Assembly (NCBI GenBank): GCA_012845835.1
Contig: JABAKD010000016.1
Coordinates: 18,851,367 to 18,915,366 of the forward strand
Reading direction: 5' to 3'
Origin: Undaria pinnatifida
Lineage: Eukaryota > Sar > Phaeophyceae > Laminariales > Alariaceae
Length of the DNA: 64,000 bases
In this document: positions 9,201-64,000 of the stretch, one piece after another
How positions within the stretch are numbered: the first letter of the stretch is position 1
Layout of the letters: the number at the start of each line of letters is the position of its first letter
Notes under the pieces: generated by a model
Told to the model about the DNA's origin: nothing
Database searches by the model: none
The model's input: the letters and a program-made list of their open reading frames with translations, nothing else
Made by a program: the position numbers and the translations under genes

Positions 9201-12200
9201 GATAGGTGTCCTGCGCTGTAGTCTATCTGCTACATGGAATACCGGTGCCTTCCACGCACAAGGAAGAACGCACTCCGTTTCCGGGTTGATTGTTTTTCTG
9301 ATGATGTACCGTGCGCAGGTGTACACGAATGTTCGCTCGCTCGTCGTGTGTTTTATCTTGCAGGTAGTCGTTCATATTCGTGTAGTTAAACCGTGGATTA
9401 ATTGCTGCTGGGGCTTCGTCGTCACTGTTTTTTTCCTGCTCAACGGCATCTAGAACAGCTCGTATCTCGCGCCGCGGCGGTGAACATTAACCACAAAAGG
9501 CTGCGGGAGCTAAAACAAAAACGCCAAAAGTTTGGCAATTGTTTTTGCTTTTGTTTTTTGACGTGCTTTACCAGAAGATAGTATAACAGAGTAATAGTGG
9601 GCATGCTTACTATTAATTGTAGTTGTTTAGAGTTGCCCCCTTTGCGATTGCTCACTTCAGAGGGAAAAGCTGTCAAAAGAATGTGACCATCTAACGATTG
9701 CAGCGTCAGCTATTCAAGCTACCCAGCTGCTGAGGCAGGGCGTCATGGACGATGGAGCACACAAATTTTAACGCAATGAGGTTATGATACTCGACACTCG
9801 CGCTGCGTGGCGCTATTAGTACTTTTTGTACGGCTCACTCACGCTACGAGCATAGAAGGACCACGCTTGTCGTCATGTTTTGTCGCTCTGCCTGGGTTCC
9901 AACGGGCGGGGCTACTAGCAATCCTAGAACTACCGCGCTAGTTGAAGGCCACAAAATTACGGTTCGCGCCTGCGCGCTCACGCCCTCCGGATGTGATGAG
10001 GTCCTAACCCAACCAGAAGCCTTAGCCTTAATCAAGCCCCAAAATTATGGAGGTGGGATTAGGGTTAGCCAAAACAGAGTGGGGGTGTGGTACACCCTGG
10101 TGTTGGGGTTGGTCCGACAACGCCTTTCACGGCCAACCACTATTAAGGAAACCCTGAAAAAAGCGAGCGTCTTGTCATTTAGGCTGTAGGATTTCAAGGA
10201 GGTCTCGTCGGTGCCAAAGGGGTTTCTACGCTATACCAGGCGTTTTCTAATTGTTTCTACTATTGTTTACGTATGACGATCCCTTTTGGGGCCGTCCAGC
10301 GGATTATCACACGACGAGTGTGTGTACCTGGTGTGACCTTATCAAGGGCCTGTGGGCCAACCTAACCCGTGTATCAATCGTCTGGGAAGAGGATGCTGCA
10401 CTACTAAGAGTACGAGTATCACCGTGCAGCGCGAGTATAGTACAATGGAGCTCCATTGTAAATGGAGGTTCGGTCACGCACCCTAGTCTACGCTGCACGA
10501 GCGGCGTGGGCCGCTGCGTGCAGCCAACGCTGCAGTCTTGATGTTTGTTTGGGACTTTGCTTCCGTCTGAAGGTATTATTTCATACTTCGAAGTATTAGG
10601 TTTGATTAGCAAGACCTCTGTAGCCCTAGGTTCCTGCGTTTTCTGCCTTTGAACCCTGCGTTCCCGCGTTGTATCCCTGCGTTTTTTTGTATGACCAAAG
10701 GTTTGACCACGTGTTTCGTATCAGGGATCTCTCTAGGATGAAACATGAGGACGCACACGATGTCCAGTAGAAAGAACGGTCTGATGTAAAAACAACACAA
10801 AAGGCATATACCGGTGATAGCTATTAATAATGCACGCACGCCTGATGCTATACGCAACGGTGTCATATAATACCATGCATTAACTTATCGCAACACTACA
10901 GTACGAGTTGATGCGGTTGCTGTGTCCCACGTGCAATGACATTATATTGTACGATACGGCATGTACTATTGTACGATACGGCATGTACTGGCCTCCTCGT
11001 GTAGAAAAAAAAAACGGGATGCTGGCCGAGGGCTAAATTGCTATTGGTTAAGTGGGTTCTATTTACGGATCAACAGGACAAAAAAGGACAAAAGAGGATG
11101 AAATCACAGACAAAAATGGAAAGCGTGACCAACTCTCAGGCGAGCTCGTACGCCACGACTGCGTTCGATTGACTCTCTGTATGTCTGGTAGGAACACCGA
11201 AACAGAATGAACTTGAGTCTATGCGCAATTCAACAAAGGCGGGTGGTTTTTTGTTTGCTAATTCATCCTGCTAGTCAGAACAGTGCATCTCCGTAGTAGA
11301 CTAGCGTCAGTAATCTTGTCTTTAAACAACACGTTAACATTTCGATAGCGTATGCATCTCATGTACGAGTAGTGCACTATTAATAGGCCCTACTAGCCCC
11401 GGGCTCGCTGGGTTTTCTCGTGAGGTTCGTAATTGTGGAAGGGTGGATAGTGTAATGTATGGTGTAATCTACAGTGTAATGTTTGTATTGTGTGTGTTGT
11501 ATACGTTGTCAATAGTTGTCACGTACGCAGCAAACGAGTAGATAAAGTTATCCCTCGCGAACGCATCGCAGGAGCCGGCAATTGATGGTTCGATCCGGAG
11601 TGAAGGGGCGCGAGGCATCCGTCGTTTCTTGTTACATACCCGTGGGCACACAACCCATGGTATCATATCATATTGTGTGTACATAGTTGTACAGCACAAA
11701 TATTGTACCAGTACCAGGCATATATTTATTTATGGTACGATACGTGATGATGCCTCGGGCTGTTGCCATTCCATCTGCTGGGCTTGTGCTCGTAGTGCCA
11801 CTGCTGCTGCTACTGCTATATGCCACCATATGCTGCTGCTGCTTGTGCTCGTATACTGCTGCCTATTATTCAAGTTAGCCTGTACACTCGGACGATGCAA
11901 GCCGCTGCCACAGCCAGAACAAAATGCTGGTCGAATTTGTATGCCTGGCACGGGTGCCATCAATGTAGTCGGTGCTTAACCTTCCTTATTTACAGCGCGT
12001 GTTGCACTCGTACTTCCGCGTATACAGCACGCGAGAGCACTCAATTAAGAATTTGGCATGTAAGTCATTTCAGCCTCGAATTTTAGTCGGAAATAAGAAC
12101 ATGGCGAAATAAGGTAGGACACACCCTGCCTTACTCGAGGATTCCAGTCTGACCAGAAATAAGAGATTATTGGCCGTTGTCGCATATTGTATACCAGGGT

Positions 12201-15200
12201 ATATGTTGACCCGTTTCCGACTTGAGGCTAGAGATGGAAAAGGGTCACGGGGTTTGACGACCACCGCGTCGGCTCCTGTGGGAGCCTAAGTACAACCCTG
12301 AGCAGTACAGGTAGTGTGCTTCACTACTGGACCAGTAATTGGCAGAGTATCGGATCTTACCACATGGATCTTACACAAACCACCCAAAAAGGAAACAGCG
12401 AGCGAGGTGTGAGCGAAGACAAGACACTGCTGTTGCTGTACGAAAAATTCAATTACTAGAGTAACGTTTGACCATCTTGTCTCACCTCCCGCCACGTTCT
12501 TTCTAACTGGCGTAAGGTCAAAAGATAATCCTCGACGCGAAAAAAACGCAAAAAATATCAGTCTCCCATGACATACGTATATTACTTGTATTTGGGAGTG
12601 GGCGGTGAGCGCATATATATGATATATGCGGGCGCGCCACTTTTTTCGTGTTCCCAGCTTTTCTCTGAATTTTTTCCACTCTTGTGACGGACAGTCTGCG
12701 TTCATTCGTTTGTGATACAGCAGTGTACATCAGCCCTGCTGCTTCTGCAGCCCTAGGTGTTAACTACCGGCCAAGACTACCGCCCCCCCTATGATACATG
12801 AGAGAGCCCCACATTCAACTATTGTGTTTCCCGCCGGTGAATAAGAAAGCATGGCCGTTCTAAGCTTAGTATGGAGTACCAGCACACATCGGCCGCTGGC
12901 TATCAGTGTGGGCTTTTTTTTTTTTGCCAGGGCCACCGCCTCCTTCGACGTGAAGGCCACTCTGCGGTGGTGCACTCCTTGTAGTAATGTAGATACGGCA
13001 GTAGCAGTATAGATATGGAAGCGAAACGGAATAACAAGTGGATCCATTAATTGCGATGCAGCGCAGCGTGCAGCCTGAATATCGAATATCAGAAATGCTG
13101 TGGGTGTTGTGTGTTTGCCTGTGTGTTGTCGTGTGTGTTTTGCTCTTGTGGGTGTTGTTGTGTTAATCAAGACTCTTTTGACCAAGGATGTCAAGAGACG
13201 GCACTTTGACCCCTTGACCGACGGCAATTTTCCGATAATTTGCCTTGACTGACGCCATACTACTAGGTTTTAGTCTGAAAAGATTGGTTTGACGTCCTTG
13301 ACGGGTGCTGCGGTAGAGGTGCGCCATATTTGTCTCCTCAGTTGAAGAGCAGTATGTATGCCGCACCCCCAATAAAAACTGGCTTGACTTTTGGTGAGAG
13401 AAACACTCAAAGCGCAACTCGAGGAACAAATTCCCATGGCCTAGGTAGTCAGACTATTGATAGTATTATAAAAATAAAAATACACTCCATCTGTGAGATC
13501 GAATATTTTGTCGAAACTCATCTTTGCAAGCTGTGTGTGATACTCCGATCGCGCGATAGTATTAGACTAGGCAGCAGGACGTAACAATGTCAGTAGTAGA
13601 GCTTACCACTTATTCGAGAAAATGGTTGACGCAGATTGTGTACGAGACGAAGGGGGCTTCACCCTACATTGGTTGGTGGCGTTTCATTGGGTTGGGGTTA
13701 GGGTATACCAGTATGTAGTTTAAAAAGTATGTCAACCATGTTGTCGAAAAAGCGGTAAGGTACCCTCAACAATAATGTGGCCGCGCGGATCTTGGACGGT
13801 AATTTTTTTTTTAATGATCTCTCATTGGCCGAGGGCCATGAGGTGGTCCGCAGATCGGAATAATAAAAGAAAAAATCGAAAAGCGGACCGGCCACGTTTC
13901 TCGTCCGTTTTGGGTCCGGGTTGGGGTCCGGGTTAGGGGTCAAGGTTAGGTCTAGGGGTTGGGTTGGGTTGGGTTGGGTTGGGTTGGTCTGCGCCCGTAC
14001 CTCGATCCCACCAGAAAGTGCTTCCTACAGTAGCTCGCAAACGCGAACAGCCTACCGCCCCAAAGATCCGCGAGACCAGATTGTTAGGCAAGCTCAGACT
14101 AGGCCATAAGCTCGTCCGGGCTGATTGGTGTTACTTGCCGGGTTACTTGCGCGGCGGCTATTGTTTTTTTCCTCTAGTTTTCCGAGAACTTTTCCATGCG
14201 AACCCCCCGGGAAAATCAAGGGAGTCACATCCTCCCCATGGCGAAGCTTGCACGTATAATATAGAAATACGATTATTTTCAAGTCAGGTTGATCTGGGCG
14301 TTCTTTTCTTCTTGCGTCGTTCTCATCCTTATCACAACACTACTCCGAAGGTAAGTGTTGTATATACAGCAGTACGGCCGTCAGATTGTGTCCCCCTCAA
14401 AAACATTGATTAACGTCACCCTGTTGACCTTGGTAGAGCTAGTTCTAAGGGGAGTCGCCGACCTAAATCCTTAATGAGGACACACACACGGTAATACGCG
14501 CGATCGGAGTATCACGCACAGCTTGCAAAGATGAGTTTCGACGAAATCTTCGGTCTCACAGATGGAGTGTATTTTTGTTTTCATAACATAGTTTTAGGAA
14601 TTATATTGATAATCATATTGGGTAGTGAACTAGGTGGGTAAAGAGTCCCGCTGTTCACAAATATTTCGGCGAAAAAGGGCTATTCCTCCCGTAGCTCGCG
14701 AGCGTGTCTGCGCTGAGTGTTCCGCCTAGAAGAGAGATGCCGGATACCAGGTCTGTGGTCACAGTCAAGATCGACGAGAGATAGACAACACACCTCGTGC
14801 GAATGGGTGCCAACGGTACTGGGCGCATACTCTCATAGCATACGAAAAGCAGGAGCTAATGTACGACACATGACAGTTACGAAGCTAATTACGAAGCTAA
14901 CGACAGTTTAGTTCACCGAACCCGACCAGTTGCAGGCAAGCAACAGACGCAACAACAAAAAAAGGCAAAAAAAAAGGAAGGAATGGAGAAAAAATAAAAT
15001 AAACGACGTCGGGCGGCATCAATGTTGTGCTGCTGTAATTTAATGTGTTAACTTTAGAACTCCGCCCACGCGAAGGTTTGAGTGGTGATCTAACGGTGCG
15101 TGGCGTTAGACCCTTGTTACCTGCCACCTCTGCCGGTTGCGCGGAGATTCGAATATCGGCTGGTGTGTGGTGCTGTGCAAGTGGCGCCTTTTTTCGGGGA

Positions 15201-30149: not shown

Positions 30150-31268
30150 ATGCACTCCACCTTCCAGCTGTGAGATCGAAGATTTCGTCGAAAATCATCT
30201 TTGCAGCAAGCTGTGTGTGATACTCCGGTCGCGCGTATTACTGGGTGTGTGTCCTCATCATGAAGGATATAGATCGGCGACCCCCCGTGGAATTACAGTG
30301 TTGTAGCTTGTACCAGGGTCAACAAGGTGACGTTAATCAGTCTGTGCGCGGAAATTGTAGAAGAAAAAAACGTTTTTGAGGGGGACAAAATCTTACAGCT
30401 GTGCAAGGAAAAGCACCAACCATCAGTTTATCAAGTAAGTAAGTGTATCCTCTAAGTCGTATAACCGGTGAGGGGAGGGCGGAGATTTTAAGGGCGTGGG
30501 GGGCGGGGTTTGAACAAGAGGGACATATATTATATATATTTCTAGCCATCCATGACGTAGCTTTAATTCACCCTACCCCCCCTCCACGCCCCCTCCTTCC
30601 CCACCACCCGCACGATCGCCTAGACCTATTAATAGTACCCCGTGTATGGCAAGCCCCTACATATATGCGTAGCACCACGCGTATAGCAAACCTCTACATA
30701 TATGCGACCTAAAATAAAGCTGTTAAAAGCCCTTTTGCCCCAACCCCCCAACCCCCCCCACCCCCTCGAACACTCCGCCCTCTACTCACTGGTTGTACGA
30801 CTTACAGGATATACATGATAAACTGGTGTATTCCCTCCAAAACCGTCAGAAGTATCCCCTGAAAGGATTTATAGTTTCCACGCACAGATTGAGTTGCCCC
30901 GCCCGTTCCCCCTCCCCCTTGTTCAAACCCAGGCCCCCACGCCCTTAAAAACTCCGCCCTCCCCTCACCGGTTATACGACTCAGAGGATACACTTACTTG
31001 ATAAACTGATGCATTTCCTTCCACAGCTGTCAAAATTTGTCCCCCTCAGAAACGGGTTTTATAGTTTCCGCGCACAGACTGCCTAACCTCACCCTGTTGA
31101 CCCTGATAGCTACACTGTAGTTGTAAGGGGAGTCGCCGACCTATATCCTTAATGAGGACACACAACCCGTAATACGCGCGATCGGGGTATCACACACAGC
31201 TTGCAAAGATAGATGAGTTTCGACAAAATCTTCGATCTCACAGCTGGAGTGTATTTTAATTTTTATAA
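30150..31268. mobile_element. Complete long-TIR (foldback/MITE-like) element
   Basis: The left arm (about 30150-30530) and right arm (about 30905-31268) are inverted copies of each other over roughly 370 bp. From the outer end inward they share CACTCCA, CAGCTGTGAGATCGAAGAT, TTTGCA(GC)AAGCTGTGTGTGAT, ATCGCGCGTATTAC, GTGTGTCCTCAT, GGATATAG(A/G)TCGGCGAC, GTCTGTGCGCGGAAA, GAGGGGGACAAA, ATCAGTTTATCAAGTAAG and ACCGGTGAGGGGAGGGCGGAG. The right arm side also has a second diverged inner unit (30775-30880). No ORF of transposase size. Ends are AT-rich and no target duplication was resolved. Confidence 0.75.
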
Positions 31269-32337
31269 TATATATATAGTCTAGTCTAAATGTGTTGTAT
31301 CTGTCTCGTAGTTTGTGACCACAGAGAGAGCCCGTCTCTGTCTAGGTATCAGCGCGGGCACTGGTTGTGCTGCACGTAGAAGCCTTCGAGGGTGGAAGTT
31401 CAGTTCTATGAGAAGACACACGCCAAGACGCACACGGTGGCTATGATATGTTACAGGGCTTAGTTTGGGTGAGCTATCGGTCAACCTTTTGCAAGTGGTC
31501 AAACGGACGAATGCCCCACCCACTAATTCCTTAACAGATATATATATACGTGCGCACAAGTTTAAACTTTTGCCATTTTGTTGAATAAATAGTAGATAGA
31601 AGGAGAAGATGTGGGGAAAGGAAATGGGCGAATGGTTGGCGGAAGATACCACTGCATTAGGGTGCGATCATTCGAAGTTATATTAGGTGCTACTGCTGCT
31701 TTAAGGAAGGATATTCGATTTATATCGGAAAGGCATCTACGCTACATTGTCGGAGGGCAAAAATAAAAATAATAATATTAGTAAATTGTTGCGACTTGGA
31801 CCAACCTCGAGAAAATGGTCGAAAGTGCACAGCAGAAGCAAGCAGCAGAGTACACGAATTTCTCATTGTTATACACGAAATATGAGAAAAATAACGAGAA
31901 TGATGTGATTGATGACGCATGAAACAACCCGTCTGTCAGACAATAAACTTTCCTCCACTGACTTTCGATCAATTTCTGGGAAATTTATTCCCCAGTGTAT
32001 CGGCGGTCGGCGTCTTTTGCGCCGAAAACGTCGGAGATGTAAATCATCATCATCATCATCAGTGTGTGCAGAACAAAACTGCCACCAGGCAATTCCTTCT
32101 GCTTTTATTTTACGAAAAACGTGTATCATTTTCTTGTTGTTGCTGGTCGTTGCCTTGTCTATTGGTCGCTGTCGAGACTACGCAGAGAGCAGAGAGGGCC
32201 CTGCCTGATTCCTGCCAGCCGATTTGTCCGTATTGCTGGTTGTTATACTTTCGCCTTGGAAAGTTTGCTGCAATTACGAAACTACAAAAAAAAAATGGCG
32301 CTGTTGTTGTTGCTATCTACACAGTACAGCGCGATCG

Positions 32338-33759: not shown

Positions 33760-49580
<15,821 letters not shown>

Positions 49581-51628: not shown

Positions 51629-54600
51629 GTGCGAGTAAGAGAAGGAAGAAGATGAGGGTTGTGTGGGTGGGTGGGTTGGGACTCAGATTTGGGGAACAAC
51701 AACGCAATACAAGAATAAGTGCGGTCTTTGCTCGGTGTTTCTGTTTTTCGAGGATCCTCAGTCGACGACACCCTGACTCACCGTAACCTCAATTTTTTTG
51801 GGCGGGGGAAACGCTCGCGCGCAGGCAGACGAAGTCCCCACCGGAAGACGACGAGATTTATATGCTTCCGACGCAGCAGGGGCAGGGGGGGAGGGGGGGG
51901 AAGAGGGTGACGGTGCGGCAGCAGATGGCGATGACGCAGGAAATGGGAAGGGGAAAGGGAAAGGGCAGTCGGAAGGGCAAGGGGTGGAGTCGACGCTAGA
52001 AAAGATCGGCGAACGAACGGTGGACGTGGTGGCCAAGCTTAGAAGGAGCGACCGTTTCAAGAACCAGATGGTGAGCTTAACCCTACAGCCGGTACCCCGA
52101 TTTAAGAGCGCCCCGTGACAAGCCGAAACGAGCGCTTTTAACTACACATTGCTCTTATCTGTAGTGGGAAATATGTACCTGGTACCAGGTAGATTTTAGT
52201 ATAGGCGGGGTACGCCTATTTGACCACTCTCAAGTCCCGGACGCTCTTTTCCTGGGCGCTCTTGAATCGGGGTGCCCACTGTATTTAGAACTCCACGCAC
52301 GTTTACGGGGGGGGAAATGATTGGGAATTTGTGTGAGATATTATTTATTTGCAATAGAAAAGGGGTTAAAATGCGGTCTGGGTCCCAGGTGTACCGACCT
52401 AGAAAACTAGAAGTGCGATAATATCATCATACCAGTCTAGGAAAGAGTGTGCAGCAGCACGAGTATCAGTATGCGGTGCGCGTGTCGTAGATCTCCTTCC
52501 ATCGCACCTCGGACACACCTTCGCCAAGGCCAAGGCCACGGTACGTTGGGGGTGTCACCCTCGTTTTGTTTTCTCTCTTGCCGAACTTAAGCTGCTCCCT
52601 CGAGAGACCCGGTGCCTCGCTCAAGAACGGACTTGAGCATAATGTCGTTATCGAAAGGCGCGAAAAAAATCTATGGCAGTCCATGCCTTGAAACCGAAAC
52701 TAAGTCAGGTAGCCGCTCGCGGGAGTTGCTCTCAGCCGCTGAAAACATGACATTCCTAAAGGTGACCCCCACATTTCATTCGAAACATTGGAGGCTGTCA
52801 TCAATATGCAAGAAAGTACGCACAAAATGCGGACGTCCGCCTCACAAGGTGGTTCCTCGTAGGATGCCGCTCACCCGTCATGCGACTCGCCAAGCACCTC
52901 ACAACTCTCCGCGCTAGGTGCGCGCGATCTCTGCCTGGTCGGTGAAAATCCGGTGTGCTCCGTCCCGGCATTGTAAAGGATGCGAAGATATGATTTATGG
53001 TCATACGACTACGGCTGTGCATGAAATGAGCAAAACACTGTCCGTAGCCTAGGTCCGTGGCCGGTGCTGTAGCCGTCGTTTCGTCTTTCTCGTCTTGCGC
53101 CTTCCAAAGGGGGTGTGTGATCACGTTTGCAGATGGCGCTGTGTATGGAGGCGCGGCGCTGTGAGGTTGGCTTCGGTAGAACCAACCAACGAACCAGCGT
53201 ACAGATAAACCAATCAACCGACCGACCTAGCAATCGACGCATTAACCACTAACCAACCAGCCCACCGAAAACAAATCGCTCAACCAACCAACTAAGAAAG
53301 AAACCGCCCGATCAACCACCCAACCAACCAATAAACGGTGAATATCCCTTCTAACTCCCCCCCCGTCCCCATCCCCCGTCCCCTCCCATCATTGCCCCCT
53401 CCCCTCTCCCGTTTGTTCTTTCGTCGTGTTTTTTTGTTTTTTTCTGGCGCTGAATACGATACAAAATCGATACCAAAACAAAACAAAACAAAACAATCGA
53501 ATCAAATCAATCAAACCAAATCAAACAAACAACACCGGAAACACACGCCATCACGAAAAACACACGAAAATTAAAATAAAACTCACCCCAAAATTTCGGG
53601 TCTGTGCATGCATATGTGCGCGTGGAACGAAAAACCAAACGCAAAACAAAACAAAACGAAAACACTAAAAAAATGCACACCAAAACACATGTATAAAAAA
53701 ACACTAAAATAAACACAAAAACGCACAATAACGAAAAAAACAGTGTGAGATCAACGAGTGCCTAAAGCGAGAGCCGGCGGCGAGGGTGGGAGCTTTGGAA
53801 GACGACCCAGAGTATAAGTTGGTCGTCGCTAGCAACGAGCTCATACAGGTGGGTGCCGGGTGGGCTGGGGGGAGGGCGGGGAGGGGGGGGGGCGGAGGGA
53901 GGGAGGGAGGGAGGGAGGGAGGGAGGGAGGGAGGGAGGGAGGAAAGGAGGGAGCACGGGGGCGGGAAACACGCAAACAAAGCAAAAAAACCTGGGCATAA
54001 GGCACTACCGTAGTTGTCAGGGTAACCGCTATAACGCTGCTGTTGATATTGTTAATGTTGTCGCTGTTGTTCAATGTTTTCAAAACAAGCACAAACGCCA
54101 CAAAAAAGGTAACAAAATAACGCCTCGTTTTCGACCGCTCGGCTGCAGGACGTCGATCCAGAAATGGTAGAGACCCAGCGTGTCGTGGTCGCCCTGTCTG
54201 CTCACGATTTTCCCGAGCTGGACATTGTGTTTTTTACTGATACATTAAAAAATTACTGGAAACAACAAAACAAAAAACACCTTTACTTTCAACTAACAAA
54301 CGCCTGGGCATTAGGCAATAAGGTAATACCGTAGCTTTCAGGCTACCAGCCAGCACTACTCTGCTGCTGCTGTCGTTTTGTACCTATTGTTTTTGTACAC
54401 ACCACGAGAAAAAACGCCGCAGAAAGTAATGGAAGTCCTCATTTTCAACCACCTGGCAGGACATCGATCCGGAAATGGTGGAGGTCCACCGGTTTGTGGT
54501 CGACCTGTACGCTCACAAGTTTCCTGAGCTGGACAGCCTGATCCCGCAGCCGGCGGACTTTGTCCGAACGGTGCAGGTCATGCAAAATGAGATGGTGAGT

Positions 54601-57600
54601 GAGTGGTGTTATATCGTCACCTGGTACAGTACACGAGTGAGGGATCGAGGGAAGGGGTCATTTTTTTTTTTTTTTTCCGGTCTACGGTAGTGGGAGATCA
54701 TGCAGAACGACGTGGGGAGCAGTATTTTAAGCTGCGAATGAGGGATCGCGCGTGTGTGACAATGCACTGTTCCCTTCGATTTATGATGGCAGGAGTAGTA
54801 GCGGGGGTGGTCGAGGGGGCGGGGGTGGGGGGATTTGGGGTGGGTGGTAGGAGTGGTGGTGAAAATGGTGTTGGTGCAGATGGTGGAATGTGTATGTTCG
54901 TGGTTGTCGTGACTGTGGTGGTGGTGGTGGTGGTGGTTCGGCGGGGGGGGGGGGGGTACTTCGAGTGGGGCTGGTGGTGGTTGGGTGGGGGTAGTGATGA
55001 TGGTGTTTGTTGTGGTGCTGATGGTGCTGATGGTGGCGCTACTATTCCTTCCTTTCCTTCCTTCACGCCTCCCTTGTTTCCTTCCTGCGCTGGCGTCGCC
55101 CAGGACATGACGCAAGTGGACCTCGAGTCGGTGCTTCCTCAGACAACGGTCATGGTCGTCAGCGTCACCGGCTCCACTACCAGCGGCCGACCGCTGCCCG
55201 GGGCGGACCTGCAGGAGTGTCTTAAGGTGCGGCGCCGAAAAAGTCGAAGGAAACACGGAACGAACGAATGACCATATCTTACCAGATGTGTAGTAGTAAC
55301 TAAAGTTGGAGCACTCGTGTCTGTTTCTCTTTCGGTTTATTCAACCCGAACCGTAACCCTTTCTGCCGCATTTTTGGAACTATTGCGTGCGCGTGTCATG
55401 GAACTCTTTGGCGGTGGATGGACGCGGCAGGGATGCAGAGAGTACGAGGCGCTTGCCGCCGCTAAGGCCTCCATCCTCGACTTTGTGGAAACCCGCATGA
55501 CGAGCATGGCGCCCAACGTGTGCGCGCTGGTGGGGAGCCGCATCACGGCTAAGCTTCTGGCGCTGACAGGAGGGCTGACGGCCATGTCTAAGACCCCTTC
55601 CTGCAACCTGCAGGTACGATGTGTGCTTTTAACAAAATTGGCAACAACGCCTCGGCTGCGAGAGCGAGAAGTTAGCAGAAGCTCAGTTTTGCAAAGCTGC
55701 GTGTGATACTTCGATCGCGCGTGCTGCGAGGTGTGTATGTGTGGGTATGGTGGGTGAGTGGTTGTGGGTGTATGCTTATGCGCGTGTATGCGCGTATTTG
55801 CGCATGAATGTGCGTGCATACGCATGTGGGCTGACGGCCATGTGTCAGAACCCGTCCTTCAACCTGCAGGGGTGTGTTTGGGTGGGTGGGGCGTGTGTTT
55901 GGGTAGGGCGTAGGCGGATGGGTGTGGTGTGTGGCTGTGTTTATGCATGTATACACCCGTGTGTATTGTGCGTTTTTGAGCTAATGTATGTGTGTGCGTG
56001 TTTCGCGTGTATGCCTACGGCCGTGGGTAAGACCCCGTCCTTTTTATCTGCAGGTGTGTGTTTGGGTGGGTGGGGTGTGTGGGTGTGTGTGGTTTGTCTA
56101 GGTGGATTAGGGTGGTGTGGGGCAGAGCGTATGCACGTATATATGCACGTGTATGTTCGTGTATGCGCGTATTCACGTGTGTGCATGCATGTATGTGCGT
56201 ACAGAAGTGGTTCCTCTGCAATGCCGGTATGTGCCCAGCCTATTTACCGGCATTATATCGGGCACCAGCATTATAGCCGGCACCGGGATTATAGCCGGCA
56301 CCGGCATTATAGCGGGCACCGGCGTTATAGCGGGCACCGGCTTAGTCGTGATTAGTGCCGATCTCGCATTATTCGCGATTGGAGGTTCTGCAATAATGTC
56401 GATACCGACACTATTGAAGAAACATTGATTTTTTTGAGTGCACCACCTTAGGCAATAAGCGACCGAGAGTACACTTTGATGGGGGGGGGGGCGAAAGTAA
56501 CTCGAGGAGGGACCTCTGCGTCGTATGCATAGCAGATGAGGAGCAAAGGCGGGTGTGGAACGCGGCACAGAATACGTGCAGCAATAGTATGGTAGAGCGG
56601 TAACATGGCAGAGCAGTGTCCCAGCAGGTTCTGCCTGTACGGAGAGCTGTAGACACGCCTAAGCTAGGCAAGGTCTACTGACCAGAAAGTATTCCCCCTT
56701 GGCCTGAGGGGGGCTGGTCGGCACCATTCGCCGCGCCTTTCTCCTCGGGACGCGCGACGCGACAGCCCGCAGTCGGCACCGCTGAATCACCGCATTTCGG
56801 TGTGTTCACCTCGCCAGCATGCCCCCCGAAAGCCTTGAGCCCGCGTGATCGGCGGGTGTGTCTTTGCTGCCCGAGTTGAACCTTCAGCGGATCAAATCGT
56901 GCCTATACTGCGATATTTCACAGAACCAAGTCAATCAACCCGATTCGAACCTCGCCATCATCAGATGTGGAGCCTGCTGCTGCAGCCCCTCCACGCTGGG
57001 TGCGATGCTGGGACATCACCTCTAGCGGCCCCTCGTACGACCACAGCAGACCTCGTTCGGAGTCCTGAGGCAGCATATGGACACCGCCCTCATCGGGTCA
57101 GAAGGCTTCCTGCCGAAAAGCGGCCCAATCCACACCTGCTTGCCGCTGTCGCAATCGTACCAGAAAAAAATCCCTGACTAACGTCGGTGTGTTCAACCTG
57201 AATTATCGATAATTGTAGACACGCCTAAGCTAGGCAAGGTCTACTGACCAGAAAGTATCCCCCCTTGGCCTGAGGGGGGCTGGTCGGCACCATTCAAGTG
57301 CTAGGAAAGGAGAGAGAAGTTGTTGTATTAGCTCCGAACACAAGAAAACAAGCGATCTTAACTTCATCCCCGAATCCCCATATCAGAATCCAGAAGAGGA
57401 TAAGTAGAAACCCCTACCGTCTTCAGGTTTAAATAACGTTCACACACCACATCAGATCCTCGACAGTCAATCACCAAGAAGATCAACTGTCGTGTATTAC
57501 CACCAACACTACACACTCTCTGGTGCTCCACTGTCCACAGAGCACAACTGCTGTACACTGCTGGCTGTACTGTGCTGTTACGTATGATATGATACCGGTA

Positions 57601-60600
57601 CTTGTTGCCAAACACGCAACAAGTTATTCTGCACCACAGCACAGTTGACAATCTTGTGCCTGTACCATGTTCGTACGAATAGTAGATTACTTTACATAAT
57701 TGTTTTAGAGCCCGAACTGTTGTTCATGTGTGGACGTTATATCTATGCGGCACATCTGCCCAGTCTGCCTCCGTGTCATACATGGCGTGGGTTTCAAAGT
57801 GCGTAACTCACCGGCTGCCTAGGGCATGGTGTTCCTCTACTGGTGGTACCGATAGGTGTACCGCTATTGCGTGTTTGTGTGTGTAGAGTACAGCAGCAGT
57901 GGGTAGAATATGCGGCCAAGCCAACGAACAGGCCATGTTAACGGGCACCCACGTTGCGGAACCGGCGTTATGCAGGGCCCGCCCGTCCTATATACCGCCG
58001 ATTCGGCATTCGAAACGGCATTATAGCGGGTTCCGGTCGTACCAAGCCATTTCACCGGCATAATTGAAGGACCTTTACTGCTGTAACCGCCCCGGTGGTC
58101 TAGTTGTGAACCTCGAATACTACTAAGGTTCGAGTCAGGGGTTCAAATCTCGGTATGGAGATTTTTTTTTCCCGGAGACACCAACTGCCGAGAGCGCTTT
58201 AAAGCGTGGATAAGCACAATTCGACGCGAGTCGACGAGGGAAAAAAGAGCTGAATTATTCTCGGGATAAGAACGAAGGCGCGTACCGTAGTGGGGAGAGG
58301 GAAGAAGAGCCTGCTTAGTGGCTCCGGATCTGGATTGCGTCTAGGAGGGAGAACGAGAACGAGTAGCGCGAAGGTAGTAGATGGGATGAACGACTATAAA
58401 AAATGCGCATGATGTATGCTGACGGCCGTGTGTGCGGCTCCGTCCTGCAGTCTGCAGGTGGGTGTGTTTGTGTGGGTGGGGTTTGTGTGGTGGTTGGACG
58501 GAGGTGGTGCGTGTACGCGCATGCATACGCGTGTTTGTGTGGGTCTGCCCGTAACTACGCGTGCGTGTGCATGTATACGCGTGTATGTGTGTGATTGTGG
58601 GTGTATGCGCGTGTATCGCGTGTATACACGTGTATGCGCAAACACACATACTGAAGTTGACGCATATCGTGTCTTTCGATATCGTCATGAGAAGCGGAGG
58701 TGATGAACGGTTTGAGCAAATGAGTGATGGGACAGCAAGTGGTATACAATCTGGAACAGCAAAAGTAGGCCAAACAGCTGCCCACCCCCAACCAACGCTG
58801 AGGGTCAAGGTGCGTCTGAGCTGGCTGTCCCGCTGGCGTGGCGTGAGCCTGTTGCTTCTTCCGTTTCTTGTCTATGTTTTCAACCGTCCTGCACTAGCTT
58901 GGGGTCATGCGTGTATGCGGGTATACACGCATGAGGGCATACCAGTACACGTATGACCCCAAGCCAGCGCAGGACTGCGTAAAAGATAGGCAAGACACGG
59001 CAGAAGCAGCAGGCGTAGGGTAAGCCAGCGGCACACCCACCGCAGACGTAGCCTGACGCTCGGCGGGGGTCGGTATCCACGACCCACTCGGAATCGGCTT
59101 CATATATGTGTCGGGTACGTATGCACGCGATGTGAAGGTGGGTAGTGATGCGTGTTTCTGTGTTTGTGTGTGCACGTGCGTGTATACGTGCTTGTGAAGG
59201 TGGGCGTGGCATCGACATGTTTGGGTCTGCATGGTACTTGTGTGTAGCAGCCGGCAGGGGCGGGTCAAGGGGCTGGAGTAGAACAGCTGTCTGCGTGTGT
59301 GTGGTTGATACCACAGCTGCAGTTAACGGAGAAGCCGATGCTCGTCAAAGCACACAATGTCTTGATGTGGTCACCTCACTTCACTTCACATTGGCGATGC
59401 CAGCGATGACACGAGAGAGTCTGTTGTAACGTAAGTACCCGACACACGGCTGTTTGTATATGTGTGTAAACCTTGACCCAGCCTCGGTTAAATGGTTGGA
59501 ATACGCTTAAATTTAAACTTTATGTCGGAAATAATCGGGATCTGTGTCGTACCTGTGCGTATCTGCCAGCAGGGATGCTTCCAAGGGCTGCAGTAGAACA
59601 GGTGTCTGCGTATGTGTGGACGTTTCACTAAGAAACGCGGCGCAGCCTGAGATAATGCGGTGGAACCTGAGCCAATAAAACTTGAACACTTGTAGAGAAT
59701 CTGTACAAGCGTGATATTCCGACATCCTACCCCCGACCGCCCGGAAAATTCTCGGAATGCAGGTGTTTTGAGGAGTTAAGTGTGGACTATCAACCTTTCT
59801 TTCGAAGCTGGCCCGAGTCGTATGCAGCACTGGTGTATGCGTGGGTGTATGTGCGAGTGTACTGTGTGACTTTACCCCTTTGAGACTTGAGAGGGAAAGT
59901 TGACGAACGAAAATCGACGACTTCGGCGTCGGCCACTGCTGGTTAGCGAGCATAAAATGGTGGCCGAACGACAACAATGTAAAGACTCGTACGGGACGGG
60001 CACACAGCATGGTTCTGCTTGCACTCTGCACGCTCACGCTACTAGAAGACGCTTGAAAATATCGCAATCGTCGTTTCTTTGGTCGCTATGCACTCTATAT
60101 ACACGGCTCTCCACGAGGTTAACACACGTGTGTGTGTGCGTGCATGTTTGGGTATACGTGCGCGTATGTGAAGGCGGATTTGTGCGCATGACTTCATGTG
60201 TTATGTTTGTTTGCGAGTTTTGACGTGTGCGTTTATGTGTGTATAGTACGTGTCTGTAAGTGCCCCTACCATGTGCGTAACTTTGTAAACCAACCACACC
60301 AAACCATTGTCAAATTCGTTGGTCCCACCCCCGCAATTCGCCACCCCCTCCCCCCACTCCACCCCACCCCACCCCACCCCAGCCCCTACCCCCTCCCACA
60401 GCTGAAGTGCGACTCGCAAGCGGTTCTTAGTAGGATGCAGCTCAACCTTCGTGCGACCTGCCTAACACCTCACGGCGCTTCGCGCTTGGTGCACGCGATG
60501 TCTGCCTGATCGGTGTAAACTCGACATGCTCCATCCCGACATAATAGGAATGCAAGGGTCTATACCATATGGTCGTACGACTACGGCTGCACATGACAAT

Positions 60601-61830
60601 GATTACCCCCCCCCGCAGGCCGCCGCTGCGAATATTCAACAAGTGATGCCCCAGGAAAAGCGCACCCTGAAAATATGTAAACCAAATCAAACCTATATCA
60701 AACTCGTTGGTGCCACCCCCGCTATCCCCCCACCCCTACCCTCGCTCCCGCCCTTACCCTCACCATCACCCCCCACCCCCACCCCCACCCCCACCCCCAA
60801 CTTCACTCCCCCCACCCCTCCCCAGCTCATTAGTGGGAGAATATACACTGTCGAGGAGGAACCGAATGTGTTAGAGGAAGAGATGAGGAAAATCGACGGA
60901 TAGTGGCATGGAGAAGTTTGGTACATTAGATAGTAGCGAGGAAACGGTCGCTATCCTAGGAGACAGATGGCGGCCACGGACGGCCGAAGGGGAAGGAGAT
61001 GAGATCAGCGAAAAAGAGTCATACCCGGGTAGAAGTTGCGCTTTTTGGGCCAATCGTTTCTCACCGATCTGACCGGTTGACTTCCTCATGTCTGGATTTG
61101 TTTATCGGTTGGCATCATAATTGTACGAGTCTTCGAGTCGATTTGTTTCAGGGCTATGTAGCGCATGGAACTGTTGGCCGGGTTGGGCGAACGAATGTCT
61201 TCCGAGTCGTGCTTTGGGTGATGTTGATGTTGATGTTGATGTTGACCTATTAATAGCTCCTCCTGTTAGGAGCTTAGAAGCTTGTGCTGTGCATCTCTAC
61301 GGTCAGATGAGTTGGAAGTTTTTGTGGAACGTACAGAAGAAAGGTACTGAGCTCCCAACTATTGGAGGTGCCTTTATTGGGAGTAGAAACGGTGTTCCGT
61401 CTCGAAAGGGATGCGTGTTCAATGGTCGAATGACTAGGGCAAGCGATAAATCGGTACGCCCCCCACCCAACCCAACCCCTTCAACCCCCCCCCCCCTCAC
61501 CTCCCCGCTCACCCCCACCCCCACCCTCCCCCGCTGGCCGTCGCTACGAATACTAAACAGGTGATGGGCCAGGAAAAGAAGACTCTGAGCGGCTTCTCAT
61601 CGAAGGCAACAGTGTCTCACGCTGGGCTGCTGTACGAGTCCGACGTCGTACAGCTGGCCCCGCCCTACCTTCGCGCCAAGGCCCTCAGGGTGACGGCCGC
61701 AAAGGTGCGGTGTTGGAATTGGAAGGGCAGCACATAGTACTATAGGTGTATCCAATATGGTCTAATTCAGGAAGCTGGGGCATTAATGCGGGATTCTTTC
61801 TACCTAGCCCATTCCAAATAGTTCGTCGTC

Positions 61831-61863
<33 letters not shown>

Positions 61864-62930
61864 ATAGTAGTAGTAGTAGTACCAGTACCAGTACCAGTAA
61901 TAGTAGCAGTAGCAGTAGCAGTAGTAGTACTAGTACTAGTACTACTACGAGTAGCACTAGTAGTAGTAGTAGTAGTAGTACCAGTACCAGTACCAGTACC
62001 AGTAACAGTAACAGTAGCAGTAGCAGTAGTAGTACTAGTACTAGTACTACTACGAGTAGCACTAGTAGTAGTAGTCGTCGTAGTGGTGGTGGTGTACTAT
62101 TAATAGCAGTATTAGCGTATCATATAGTAAAAAAGAAGACGTAAAACGTAATTGTTGCCGTGCTGCTGCAGCTGACTTCTGGAACGCCGGCATGATTTGG
62201 TTCGTACTTCGTATTTACATGTCTTTTGCTGTTGCTGCTGTTGCTGCTGCTGTTGCGGTTGTTTGTGCTGTTGTTTTGCTGATGTTGATGTTGCCGTTAT
62301 TGTTGCTGATGTTGCTGTTGATTGCCGTCACTGTTGTTGTTGGCTGTTGTTTTGCTGTTGTTGGCTGTTGTTTTGCTGTTGTTGGCTGTTGTTTCGCTGT
62401 TGTTGTTGCTGCCGTTGCTACTCTTTGTTCGCTGTTTGTGTCTGCTCTTGCTGATGTTGCCAGGTGCTGTGGCTGCTGTGGTATTGCTTTTGCTCCTGTC
62501 TCTGTTGATGTCACTGTCACTCGCTTGTCGTTATCCCGTCCCGCATACAAACAGCAGTGGTGATGGTAATGGTGGTGATGGTGATGGTGATGAGGATGAT
62601 GATGATAATGACGATGATTACGATGATAGTGATGATGACGATGATAAATAGGATGACGCTGATGACGATGATGATGGTGATTTATACTGATGGCCATGAT
62701 GATGATGATCTCACATTCGTTAGTTTTCCCCCATGGTCACACCACGACCAGGTAAGCCTGGCCTCAAGGTTCGACAGCTACGGTAACGACCCCTCGGGCC
62801 ACGTTGGGCGGCAGTGGAGGGCGGACGTGGAAGAGAAAATCGAAAAATGGCAGGAGCTACAAACGGCCAAGACGAAGAAGGCGCTGCCCAAGCCGGACGA
62901 CATGCCGGCCAGAAAACGCGGCGGGAAGAG
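51476..62930 (+). CDS. PRP31: Pre-mRNA splicing factor Prp31 (U4/U6 snRNP), 3' part beyond the window
   Basis: Exons 51476-51628, 51825-52070, 53744-53848, 54460-54594, 55104-55226, 55431-55613, 61561-61704 and 62752-62930; 422 aa so far. Prp31 binds the 15.5K/U4 snRNA complex and links U4/U6 to U5 in the tri-snRNP. The acidic N-terminus (SLADxLL-like start) leads into NOSIC (DDPEYKLVVASNELI; HKFPELDSLIPQPADFVRTV) and the Nop domain (TTVMVVSVTGSTTSG; FVETRMTSMAPN; GGLTAMSKTPSCN; EKKTLSGFSS; YESDVVQ; EEKIEKWQE). The last exon ends ARKRGGK with donor AAGAG|GTGAAC in phase 2. If unspliced, TGA at 62932-62934 would stop it. Family members continue with RxYRKMKERL, so splicing to an exon beyond 64000 is likely. 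The first seven introns are all phase 0. Confidence 0.95.
51825..52070 (+). CDS. PRP31: PRP31 exon 2
   Basis: Acceptor CGCGCAG|GCA; donor CAGATG|GTGAGC. Gly/Asp-rich, then VDVVAKLRRSDRFKNQM, matching the family's IAKLxxSxxF segment. Confidence 0.88.
52091..52277. mobile_element. Short MITE, copy 2
   Basis: The 187-bp element has terminal inverted repeats GGTACCCCGATTTAAGAGCG... and ...CGCTCTTGAATCGGGGTGCC, about 22 bp each with few mismatches. It starts 20 bp inside PRP31 intron 2. Related copy at 45893-46051. No target duplication was identified. Confidence 0.7.
52845..53040 (+). repeat. Fragment of the dispersed coding-like repeat family
   Basis: GGATGC(C/A)GCTCA, CACCTCAC, CGCTAGGTGC, TCTGCCTGGTCGGTGAAAA, TGCTCCGTCCCG and CATACGACTACGGCTGTGCATGA match 60420-60600 and the complement of 39600-39760. 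In PRP31 intron 2. Confidence 0.65.
53744..53848 (+). CDS. PRP31: PRP31 exon 3
   Basis: 35 codons, acceptor AAAACAG|TGT, donor ATACAG|GTGGGT. EDDPEYKLVVASNELIQ is the start of NOSIC. Confidence 0.93.
53880..53945 (+). repeat. GGGA microsatellite
   Basis: About 15 GGGA units just after the PRP31 exon 3 donor. Confidence 0.9.
54149..54322 (+). pseudogene. Duplicated PRP31 exon 4 copy, still open and possibly spliceable
   Basis: 54149-54223 encodes DVDPEMVETQRVVVALSAHD and then FPELD, a 25-codon match to exon 4 (54460 on). It is preceded by an intact acceptor CGGCTGCAG. The frame stays open over unrelated sequence to a donor-like AATAAG|GTAATA at 54322, giving 58 codons in phase 0 on both sides. 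Flanking intron sequence is duplicated too (about 53985-54050 versus 54297-54360). It is either a decayed exon duplicate or a rare cassette exon. Confidence 0.75.
54460..54594 (+). CDS. PRP31: PRP31 exon 4
   Basis: 45 codons, acceptor CCTGGCAG|GAC, donor GAGATG|GTGAGT. Contains HKFPELDSLIPQPADFVRTV, the Prp31 NOSIC signature. Confidence 0.95.
55104..55226 (+). CDS. PRP31: PRP31 exon 5
   Basis: 41 codons, acceptor CGCCCAG|GAC, donor CTTAAG|GTGCGG. Contains QTTVMVVSVTGSTTSGRPL. Confidence 0.94.
55431..55613 (+). CDS. PRP31: PRP31 exon 6
   Basis: 61 codons, acceptor GCGGCAG|GGA, donor CTGCAG|GTACGA. Core of the Nop domain (FVETRMTSMAPNVCALVGS; GGLTAMSKTPSCNLQ). Confidence 0.96.
55664..55720 (+). 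repeat. Short remnant of the long-TIR family left end
   Basis: CTCAGTTTTGCAAAGCTGCGTGTGATACTTCGATCGCGCGT follows the family order, 50 bp into PRP31 intron 6. Confidence 0.55.
55825..55869 (+). repeat. Decayed copy of the PRP31 exon 6 end (copy a)
   Basis: GGGCTGACGGCCATGTGTCAG..., TTCAACCTGCAG: encodes GLTAMCQNPSFNLQ versus GLTAMSKTPSCNLQ in exon 6. The donor is changed to GGGTGT. Confidence 0.8.
56010..56053 (+). repeat. Decayed copy of the PRP31 exon 6 end (copy b)
   Basis: CTACGGCCGTGGGTAAGACC, CCGTCC, ATCTGCAG|GTGTGT: the exon-end motif is kept with a GT donor, the frame is broken, and the same GTTTGGGTGGGTGGGG tail follows as after copy a. Confidence 0.75.
56225..56345 (+). repeat. ~17-bp minisatellite GGCACCGGCATTATAGC
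   Basis: Six imperfect units. Similar words (CGGCATTATAGCGGG) recur at 57965-58065. Confidence 0.75.
56644..57302 (+). repeat. Pair of ~86-bp direct repeats flanking 0.49 kb (TRIM-like)
   Basis: 56647-56731 and 57217-57301 are nearly identical (TGTAGACACGCCTAAGCTAG ... GGCTGGTCGGCACCATTC, one difference seen). A second direct repeat, TCGGTGTGTTCA(A)CCT, lies inside both ends (56794, 57184). The arrangement resembles a terminal-repeat retrotransposon in miniature, but no clear primer-binding site, polypurine tract or target duplication was seen. Confidence 0.5.
58088..58404 (+). mobile_element. tRNA-derived SINE, family 2, copy 2
   Basis: The head CCCCGGTGGTCTAGTTG is the A-box region and GGGGTTCAAATCTCG the B-box. 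The body is shared with 40653-40998 (GAGAGCGCTTTAAAGCGTGGATA, ACAATTCGACGCGAGTCGA, GCGCGTACCGTAG). It ends in ATAAAAAATG. Confidence 0.75.
58415..58457 (+). repeat. Decayed copy of the PRP31 exon 6 end (copy c)
   Basis: GCTGACGGCCGTGTGTGCGG, GTCCTGCAGTCTGCAG|GTGGGT, again followed by GTGTTTGTGTGGGTGGGG. It directly abuts the SINE tail. Confidence 0.7.
60405..61450 (+). repeat. Dispersed coding-like repeat, long broken copy
   Basis: 60420-60600 and 60850-60990 match the minus strand of 39830-39400 (HGASRLVHAMSA; NVLEEEMRKIDG; MAATDGRRGR). 61340-61450 matches 39400-39250. Stops interrupt the frame. Confidence 0.6.
60607..60671 (+). repeat. Decayed copy of the PRP31 exon 7 start
   Basis: CCGCTGCGAATATTCAACAAGTGATG, CCCAGGAAAAGCGCACCCTG parallels the real acceptor and exon start (CGCTACGAATACTAAACAG|GTGATG, GGCCAGGAAAAGAAGACTCTG). 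The AG acceptor has moved or been lost. Offset 918 bp. Confidence 0.75.
61561..61704 (+). CDS. PRP31: PRP31 exon 7
   Basis: 48 codons, acceptor ACTAAACAG|GTG, donor GCAAAG|GTGCGG. Contains GQEKKTLSGFSS and LYESDVVQLAPPYLRAKALR. Confidence 0.95.
61830..62090 (+). repeat. AGT/ACC/AGC trinucleotide microsatellite
   Basis: Imperfect AGTAGTAGCAGTACCAGT units in PRP31 intron 7, including a larger duplicated block (61900-61975 and 61985-62070). Ser/Thr and Leu/Val strings in translation are artefacts. Confidence 0.9.
62215..62710 (+). repeat. GCT/GTT-rich then GAT-rich triplet stretches
   Basis: 62215-62510 is GCTGTT-type with a 19-20-bp unit (GTTGGCTGTTGTTTTGCTGT) in tandem at 62340-62400. 62555-62710 is GATGGT/GATGAT. 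The latter runs to within 40 bp of the exon 8 acceptor. Confidence 0.85.
62752..62930 (+). CDS. PRP31: PRP31 exon 8 (last exon seen)
   Basis: Acceptor CGACCAG|GTA, ends phase 2 at AAGAG|GTGAAC. Contains VSLASRFDSYGND, then VEEKIEKWQELQ and ARKRGGK, matching the end of the Nop domain. Confidence 0.93.
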
Positions 62931-63760: not shown

Positions 63761-63779
63761 TTGTAAATAATGTAAGAAG

Positions 63780-64000
63780 ACACCTCAGCTGCGAGATCGA
63801 GGATTTCGCCAAAACGCAAATTTTGCGAGTTGTTTGTGATTCTTCGATCGCGTGTAGTAGAGGGAGGGTGTCCTCGTGAAGGATACATAGGCATGTGGCT
63901 CCTCTGAGTGCTAGCCTCATTTTTCCGAACGACCAGCTGAAAAATCTCTCAAATGTTCTTGACTGTACGTCGTCGGCTACATATCGCTTTATGATTATTT
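63780..64000 (+). mobile_element. Left end of a long-TIR element, continuing past the window
   Basis: CAGCTGCGAGATCGAGGAT, TTTGCGAGTTGTTTGTGATTCTTCGATCGCGTGTA, GGTGTCCTCGTGAAGGATA is the family's left-end order with more mismatches than other copies. The remainder is outside the window. Confidence 0.5.

Follow-up and report, generated by a model that had tools for sequence, protein, structure and literature searches.

Decayed copies of exon edges and short local duplications in introns of Undaria pinnatifida

The window analysed here is a stretch of 64,000 nucleotides from the brown alga Undaria pinnatifida (C22:18851367-18915366, in a genome of 511,146,479 bases in 68 contigs), and it holds two multi-exon genes on opposite strands. 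For PRP31, eight plus-strand exons, joined in order, match human PRP31 over query residues 44 to 373 with a phmmer E value of 1.1e-75; the start of exon 2, near 51825, is approximate. The minus-strand gene matches the Pfam MGH1-like glycoside hydrolase domain (PF22422, E 1.1e-16) and will be hereafter referred to as the hydrolase gene. Six of its exons were used, and the ends of the exon at 47022-47260 are approximate. An open frame that we take to resemble the next PRP31 exon (FAMTDVRKEANRMGF) lies past the window end, in L003 at the window-equivalent positions 64533-64758, and PRP31 therefore probably continues beyond the window. Two groups of open reading frames at 1-33 kb of the window, tried as a source of further junctions, were without Pfam match. 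The window contains no RNA family at gathering score and no tRNA, and no relatives were confirmed among viral contigs. The PRP31 exons that enter the analysis by their coordinates are:

53744-53848, 54460-54594, 55104-55226, 55431-55613, 61561-61704 and 62752-62930, plus strand: PRP31 exons 3 to 8, in this order

A first-pass annotation of this DNA had noted ten positions at which edges of exons of the two genes recur as decayed copies. All ten align on the same strand with the parent edge in PRP31 or in the hydrolase gene; the alignments were targeted and are without a significance test of their own. The copies and their parents are:

53997-54224, plus strand: copy of the end of intron 3 and the first 76 bp of PRP31 exon 4 (exon part from 54149); 61 of 76 exon and 100 of 139 intron positions identical, AG kept
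54318-54535, plus strand: its parent, end of intron 3 and start of PRP31 exon 4
55567-55624, plus strand: parent, end of PRP31 exon 6 and its donor
55823-55877, plus strand: first copy of the PRP31 exon 6 end, in an array of roughly 180 bp; aligned to 55567-55624
56017-56055, plus strand: second copy of the PRP31 exon 6 end, in the same array of about 180 bp; weak match to the parent 55567-55624
58418-58467, plus strand: third copy of the PRP31 exon 6 end, set apart by repeat-bearing sequence; aligned to 55567-55624
60605-60670, plus strand: copy of the end of intron 6 and the start of PRP31 exon 7; acceptor AG lost
61523-61588, plus strand: its parent, end of intron 6 and start of PRP31 exon 7
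46547-46736, minus strand: copy of an intron end and the start of hydrolase exon 4; aligned to 46270-46468
46270-46468, minus strand: its parent, intron end and start of hydrolase exon 4
41264-41284, minus strand: short copy (21 bp) of the start of hydrolase exon 6; 19 of 21 positions identical to 41175-41195
37497-37596, minus strand: copy of the end of hydrolase exon 7 and its donor; aligned with 37729-37824, GT kept
36561-36725, minus strand: copy of an intron end and the start of hydrolase exon 8; aligned with 36332-36506, AG lost
35776-35824, minus strand: copy of the end of hydrolase exon 8; aligned with 35999-36055, GT lost

When the ten pairs are pooled, identity is 80.8% in the exon parts (424 of 525 positions) and 75.4% in the intron parts (310 of 411), with 19 and 51 gap columns, respectively. 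Long intron parts are found in the pairs of PRP31 exons 4 and 7 and of hydrolase exons 4, 7 and 8 (start), and five of the ten pairs hold only 2 to 10 intron bases. Both intron and exon sequence are present in the copies, so the source was genomic DNA and not mRNA. Four of the ten are weak when taken singly. These are 41264 (21 bp, 30.1 bits), 35776 (37 bp, 32.8 bits), 58418 (40 bp and 32.8 bits against its parent) and 56017, which reaches 30 bits against the first copy of the exon 6 array and stays below 30 against the parent.

Direct repeats of at least 30 bits that lie less than 1 kb apart number 55 in the window, as compared with 4 inverted ones, and three bands of larger separation, each 3 kb wide, gave 3, 1 and 3 direct pairs. 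Chance similarity is ruled out for the copies as a class by these orientation and distance controls. By a count from the pair list, 18 of the 55 local direct pairs fall in a low-complexity coding region at 33.7-35.1 kb. The segment 4000-20000 of the window has no direct repeats less than 1 kb apart, and neither has L008, one of the other stretches described below; neighbouring stretches have several per 10 kb. These two repeat-free stretches are perhaps younger inserted DNA.

The copies of the PRP31 exon 6 end belong to an array whose period is close to 180 bp, as seen when 55742-56000 is aligned with 55919-56187. This array is broken by two segments, 55647-55742 and 58203-58413, both of which match elsewhere in the window, the second at 40800-41005. 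The surroundings of the exon 7 start copy are also rich in repeats:

60401-60613, plus strand: repeat adjoining the exon 7 start copy; matches 39574-39779 (inverted), and its part 60401-60602 matches 52829-53029
60847-61468, plus strand: repeat-bearing stretch between the exon 7 start copy and its parent; 60847-61015 matches 39391-39566 and 61339-61468 matches 39242-39371, both inverted

The intron piece 60292-60400, located before the exon 7 start copy, recurs at 60680-60793. The segments 39242-39815 and 60401-61468 are related composite repeats in two unrelated genes, and in both cases a 3' splice site with its C-rich tract follows a short way after the repeat. At least eight places of the window are occupied by a family of short dispersed repeats: 493-576, 13464-13555, 14497-14590, 30163-30250, 31160-31275, 42362-42458, 55647-55742 and 63761-63885. 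PRP31 intron 6 also contains an 82-bp direct pair, 56648-56729 and 57214-57295, which is 98.8% identical, its divergence being far below that of the remaining local pairs in both genes. An ACAG array of 764 bp with 98% matches lies at 47364-48127.

The first-pass annotation had further held that the duplications concentrate at exon-intron junctions. Within the two genes, local repeats that score at least 30 bits and lie less than 3 kb apart were grouped by hand into 17 families; the family-level test also took in a hydrolase edge set at 35601. Duplication restricted to junctions is not what self-alignment of both genes reveals: eight of the 17 families touch a splice junction and nine touch none, three of these nine being weak (30-35 bits). 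Similar numbers of families with and without a splice site are the outcome that the first-pass annotation had named as refuting its reading. Four duplications that involve no junction or lie inside an exon are:

45406-45751, minus strand: head-to-tail duplication of 171 bp within an intron, no junction
40303-40449, minus strand: head-to-tail duplication of 75 bp within an intron, no junction
59223-59619, plus strand: local duplication within PRP31 intron 6, no junction
38658-38884, minus strand: local duplication within the coding hydrolase exon 7

Nevertheless, eight families exceed the 2.92 expected to touch a junction under random placement (P = 0.0025, at least 30 bits). The excess fades as the cut-off rises: 6 of 12 families touch a junction at both at least 38 and at least 45 bits (P = 0.027 and 0.026), 5 of 10 at 50 bits or more (P = 0.053) and 3 of 6 at 60 bits or more (P = 0.195). 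Counted by junction, 8 of the 27 junctions of the two genes are covered against 3.29 expected by circular shift (P = 0.014). All of these P values are post hoc, the junction pattern having been noticed before it was tested, and they are weakened accordingly. Coverage in the window genes is highest at 0-50 bp from a junction (16.2%) and is 12.5% beyond 800 bp; 14.6% of exon bases and 12.1% of intron bases are covered. A bias of detection was simulated by letting duplications fall anywhere, discarding those wholly within an exon and making exons evolve slowly. The share of duplications at junctions, 0.150-0.174 before detection, rose to at most 0.183 among those detected, so the slower decay of the exon half accounts for little of the excess. 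Exon constraint as the whole cause of the window excess was rejected, since the simulation yields an enrichment of only about 1.2-fold.

An independent test was made on the chaperonin family (PF00118), for which a search gave 57 exon matches that were grouped by hand into ten places. Six of the ten were examined, and they hold 30 of the 57 matches whole. The 30 exons were placed by eye, guided by the matches and by the splice consensus; exons missed by the search count as intron. All 30 acceptors have AG, while 27 of the 30 donors have GT, two have GC, and one had been misplaced by 3 bases and was corrected. Local direct repeats cover 8 of the 60 junctions (13.3%), against 7.78 expected by circular shifts (P = 0.52), and the covered fraction of intron positions is equal, at 13.3%. 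At the stricter cut-offs of 38 and 45 bits, 6 of the 60 junctions are covered, as compared with 11.4% and 9.5% of intron positions, respectively. Within 0-50 bp of a junction 8.6% of positions are covered, at a distance of 201-800 bp about 19%, and farther away than 800 bp 7.4%; for exons the figure is 7.8%. In oriented coordinates, the covered donors are L010:1136, L012:8201, L013:5640 (seven matching pairs) and L014:8332, and the covered acceptors are L013:6868, L014:530 and L014:8082 (two pairs); at L013:321 the repeat begins at the junction and includes almost no exon. Junction-edge copies recur in other genes, at the background rate.

Three GC donors of GC-AG introns were seen, at window position 43902 (a hydrolase exon end), L010 oriented 609 and L011 oriented 919. 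Two introns, L011 oriented 9183-9554 (372 nt) and L014 oriented 8333-8851 (519 nt), have lengths divisible by three; they lie between chaperonin exons that seemingly share one open frame, and they appear to be stop-free.

An excess at splice sites over shuffled placements, for which the first-pass annotation had suggested a test, is thus nominally present in the window (8 of 27 junctions) and did not recur in the six other loci (8 of 60). As a general rule, the concentration at junctions is not confirmed, in view of the nine junction-free families of the window and of the 60 other junctions, where there is no excess. If the window rate applied to the chaperonin loci, eight or fewer covered junctions among 60 would have P = 0.003; compared directly, 8 of 27 and 8 of 60 differ with P = 0.08. 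Pooling all 87 junctions gives 16 covered against 11.04 expected (P = 0.086), which leaves room for a weak general excess at junctions. A copying process that prefers splice junctions, acting for example through transcription, R-loops or the low-complexity tracts (C-rich and GT-rich) in which introns end, could be argued from the window excess by junctions and by families, from the peak of coverage within 50 bp of the window junctions and from the small effect of detection bias. Such a process is nonetheless unlikely, since the other loci show 8 covered junctions where 7.78 are expected, their coverage is low beside junctions (8.6%, as compared with about 19% at distances of 201-800 bp), and the window result was picked out once it had already been noticed. 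The two causes that the first-pass annotation had offered for the concentration fare differently. Local copying is real and widespread in the genome sample, but it is not specific to splice junctions. Selection against duplications that hit exon interiors is compatible with the chaperonin loci, where 7.8% of exon and 13.3% of intron bases are covered, but not with the window genes (14.6% and 12.1%).

Short local duplication is a general feature of the genome sample. Eight further stretches of 10 kb, two flanking the window and six at 3.0 Mb of other contigs, contain 95 direct and 9 inverted local pairs, L008 having none. A set of 20 ten-kb stretches was then composed of 14 stretches that include the six chaperonin loci, and of six pieces into which the window's first 60 kb were divided. 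Local direct pairs scoring 32 bits or more are present in 18 of these 20; they are absent from L008 and from window 10-20 kb, so the background is uneven. At separations below 1 kb this set has 235 direct pairs and 15 inverted ones, and the offset is 60-300 bp in 155 of the 235 direct pairs, with a steep drop beyond 500 bp. Grouping at 38 bits gave 83 families, of which 28 are head-to-tail or overlapping; the other 55 have a spacer of more than 10 bp, whatever their identity. Most events are too diverged for microhomology or filler to be read at their breakpoints; four direct pairs in the 20 stretches, two of them in one array, reach 93% identity or more and exceed 40 bp. Comparison of the spacers with a decayed continuation of the tandem unit gave a mixed result, some resembling the flanking sequence and others not. 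Given the 55 families with a spacer, simple tandem duplication is not shown for most of the 83.

The exon-edge copies are same-strand, local and diverged, like the repeats found inside introns and in stretches chosen regardless of genes. We consider it very probable that they are remnants of ordinary short-range genomic duplications, with offsets mostly of 60-300 bp, that are widespread in this genome. A short-range duplication, head-to-tail in some of the cases and spaced in most others, would by chance span a splice junction. One copy would stay joined to the rest of the exon and work, and the other would fall in the intron, be spliced out and decay. Only a copy still attached to the remaining exon could function, so that the position of the other on the intron side would be a matter of geometry and not of targeting. 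A conserved exon as its parent would make the intronic copy readily recognisable. Repeats inserted later into the arrays, suggested by the within-window matches, may have shifted some copies 0.9-2.8 kb away. The duplications themselves may arise when breaks are repaired or DNA is replicated, either as staggered ends are filled in or as neighbouring DNA is copied, as the literature on such events suggests.

Local repeats are carried by 16 of the 87 junctions overall and by 8 of the 60 in the chaperonin loci. It could be proposed that duplication is so frequent in this lineage as to leave about one junction in five to eight with a decayed local repeat, and thereby to supply a standing reserve of spare splice sites. 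In some genes, such as these two, a process biased towards junctions, perhaps where intron ends are rich in C or GT, would act in addition; we regard this combination as improbable.

Retention of the copies for a function, whether as splice-site decoys, points of recursive splicing or alternative exons, was weighed on 20 copy-parent pairs, the ten of the window and ten taken from the 17 listed for the chaperonin loci. The splice dinucleotide, AG or GT, is kept in 14 of the 20, and the exon part of the PRP31 exon 4 copy is gap-free across its 76 bp, as might be expected of functional copies. Neutral decay, however, predicts much the same retention, about 0.61-0.68 as calculated from identities of 0.78 for intron and 0.825 for exon, and several copies have lost the dinucleotide or have indels. 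Mismatches of the window genes by codon position are 29/177, 28/173 and 45/175 (16, 16 and 26%). Positions 1 and 2 mismatch equally, which argues against coding constraint on the copies, and the pattern looks neutral, as when a neutral copy is compared with a parent whose own changes fall mostly at third positions. Neither the dinucleotide nor the codon-position counts give any sign of copies kept for use, and a functional role is very unlikely.

Tandem duplication of AGGT-containing exon DNA can create an intron that is itself the duplicated piece, and the copies described here do sit in introns and carry exon-edge sequence. Most of them, however, hold the adjoining intron too (310 of 411 positions identical), so the junction predates the duplication; such an origin is contradicted by four or five copies in which the intron half is long, and in that model the intron would start with a copy of the downstream exon. 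Intron gain of this kind is extremely unlikely here. An assembly or sequencing artefact, in whose favour nothing was found although low-complexity tracts are common, deserves almost no credence, with copies roughly 20-25% diverged and local repeats on several contigs.

Remnants of short-range duplication, the reading that we favour, have counterparts elsewhere. Short paired duplications were reportedly described in mammals, a different lineage, by Thomas and colleagues in 2004. Pace et al. (2009, PMC2671141) describe repair-mediated proximal duplications in human, located within 5 kb of the donor, with a mean length of 162 bp and a median of 147 bp, and exons and intron splice sites are among the duplicated sequences. 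The Undaria copies are like them in being local, near the donor and inclusive of splice sites. The human set was found as insertions in mobile elements and copies within 50 bp of each other were dropped as tandem, whereas 28 of the 83 families here are head-to-tail or overlapping; a further difference lies in the divergence of most pairs here (median identity 79.8%). Small tandem duplications at induced double-strand breaks arise through fill-in and end joining, according to Schimmel et al. (2021, PMC8355091), and have in common with some of the present ones the head-to-tail local duplication of genomic DNA. Those duplications are experimentally induced and are described as the most frequent of the short (<100 bp) insertions, whereas ours are deduced from sequence and have offsets mostly of 60-300 bp. 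In a potato RdRp gene, as reported by Ma et al. (2016, PMC4974935), a tandem duplication across an intron-exon boundary created a new intron. The event shares with ours a duplication that spans such a boundary and carries splice signals, but potato RdRp gained a new intron, while the extra copies here appear to decay within existing introns. The present copies are of the same known kind as these small human, break-induced and potato duplications. Among the matches listed in a literature search on brown-algal introns with tandem duplication or duplicated splice sites, none was on the subject by its title.

The interest of the copies lies mainly in the abundance of such duplications in this genome. 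Where short local duplications abound, and only the copies that bear exon sequence are recognisable by eye, a striking pattern at exon edges arises easily. With about 13% of intron positions and of junctions covered by local repeats in the chaperonin loci, annotation should expect false exon edges within introns. The genome looks well suited to dating small duplications and to asking whether spare splice sites are ever taken up.
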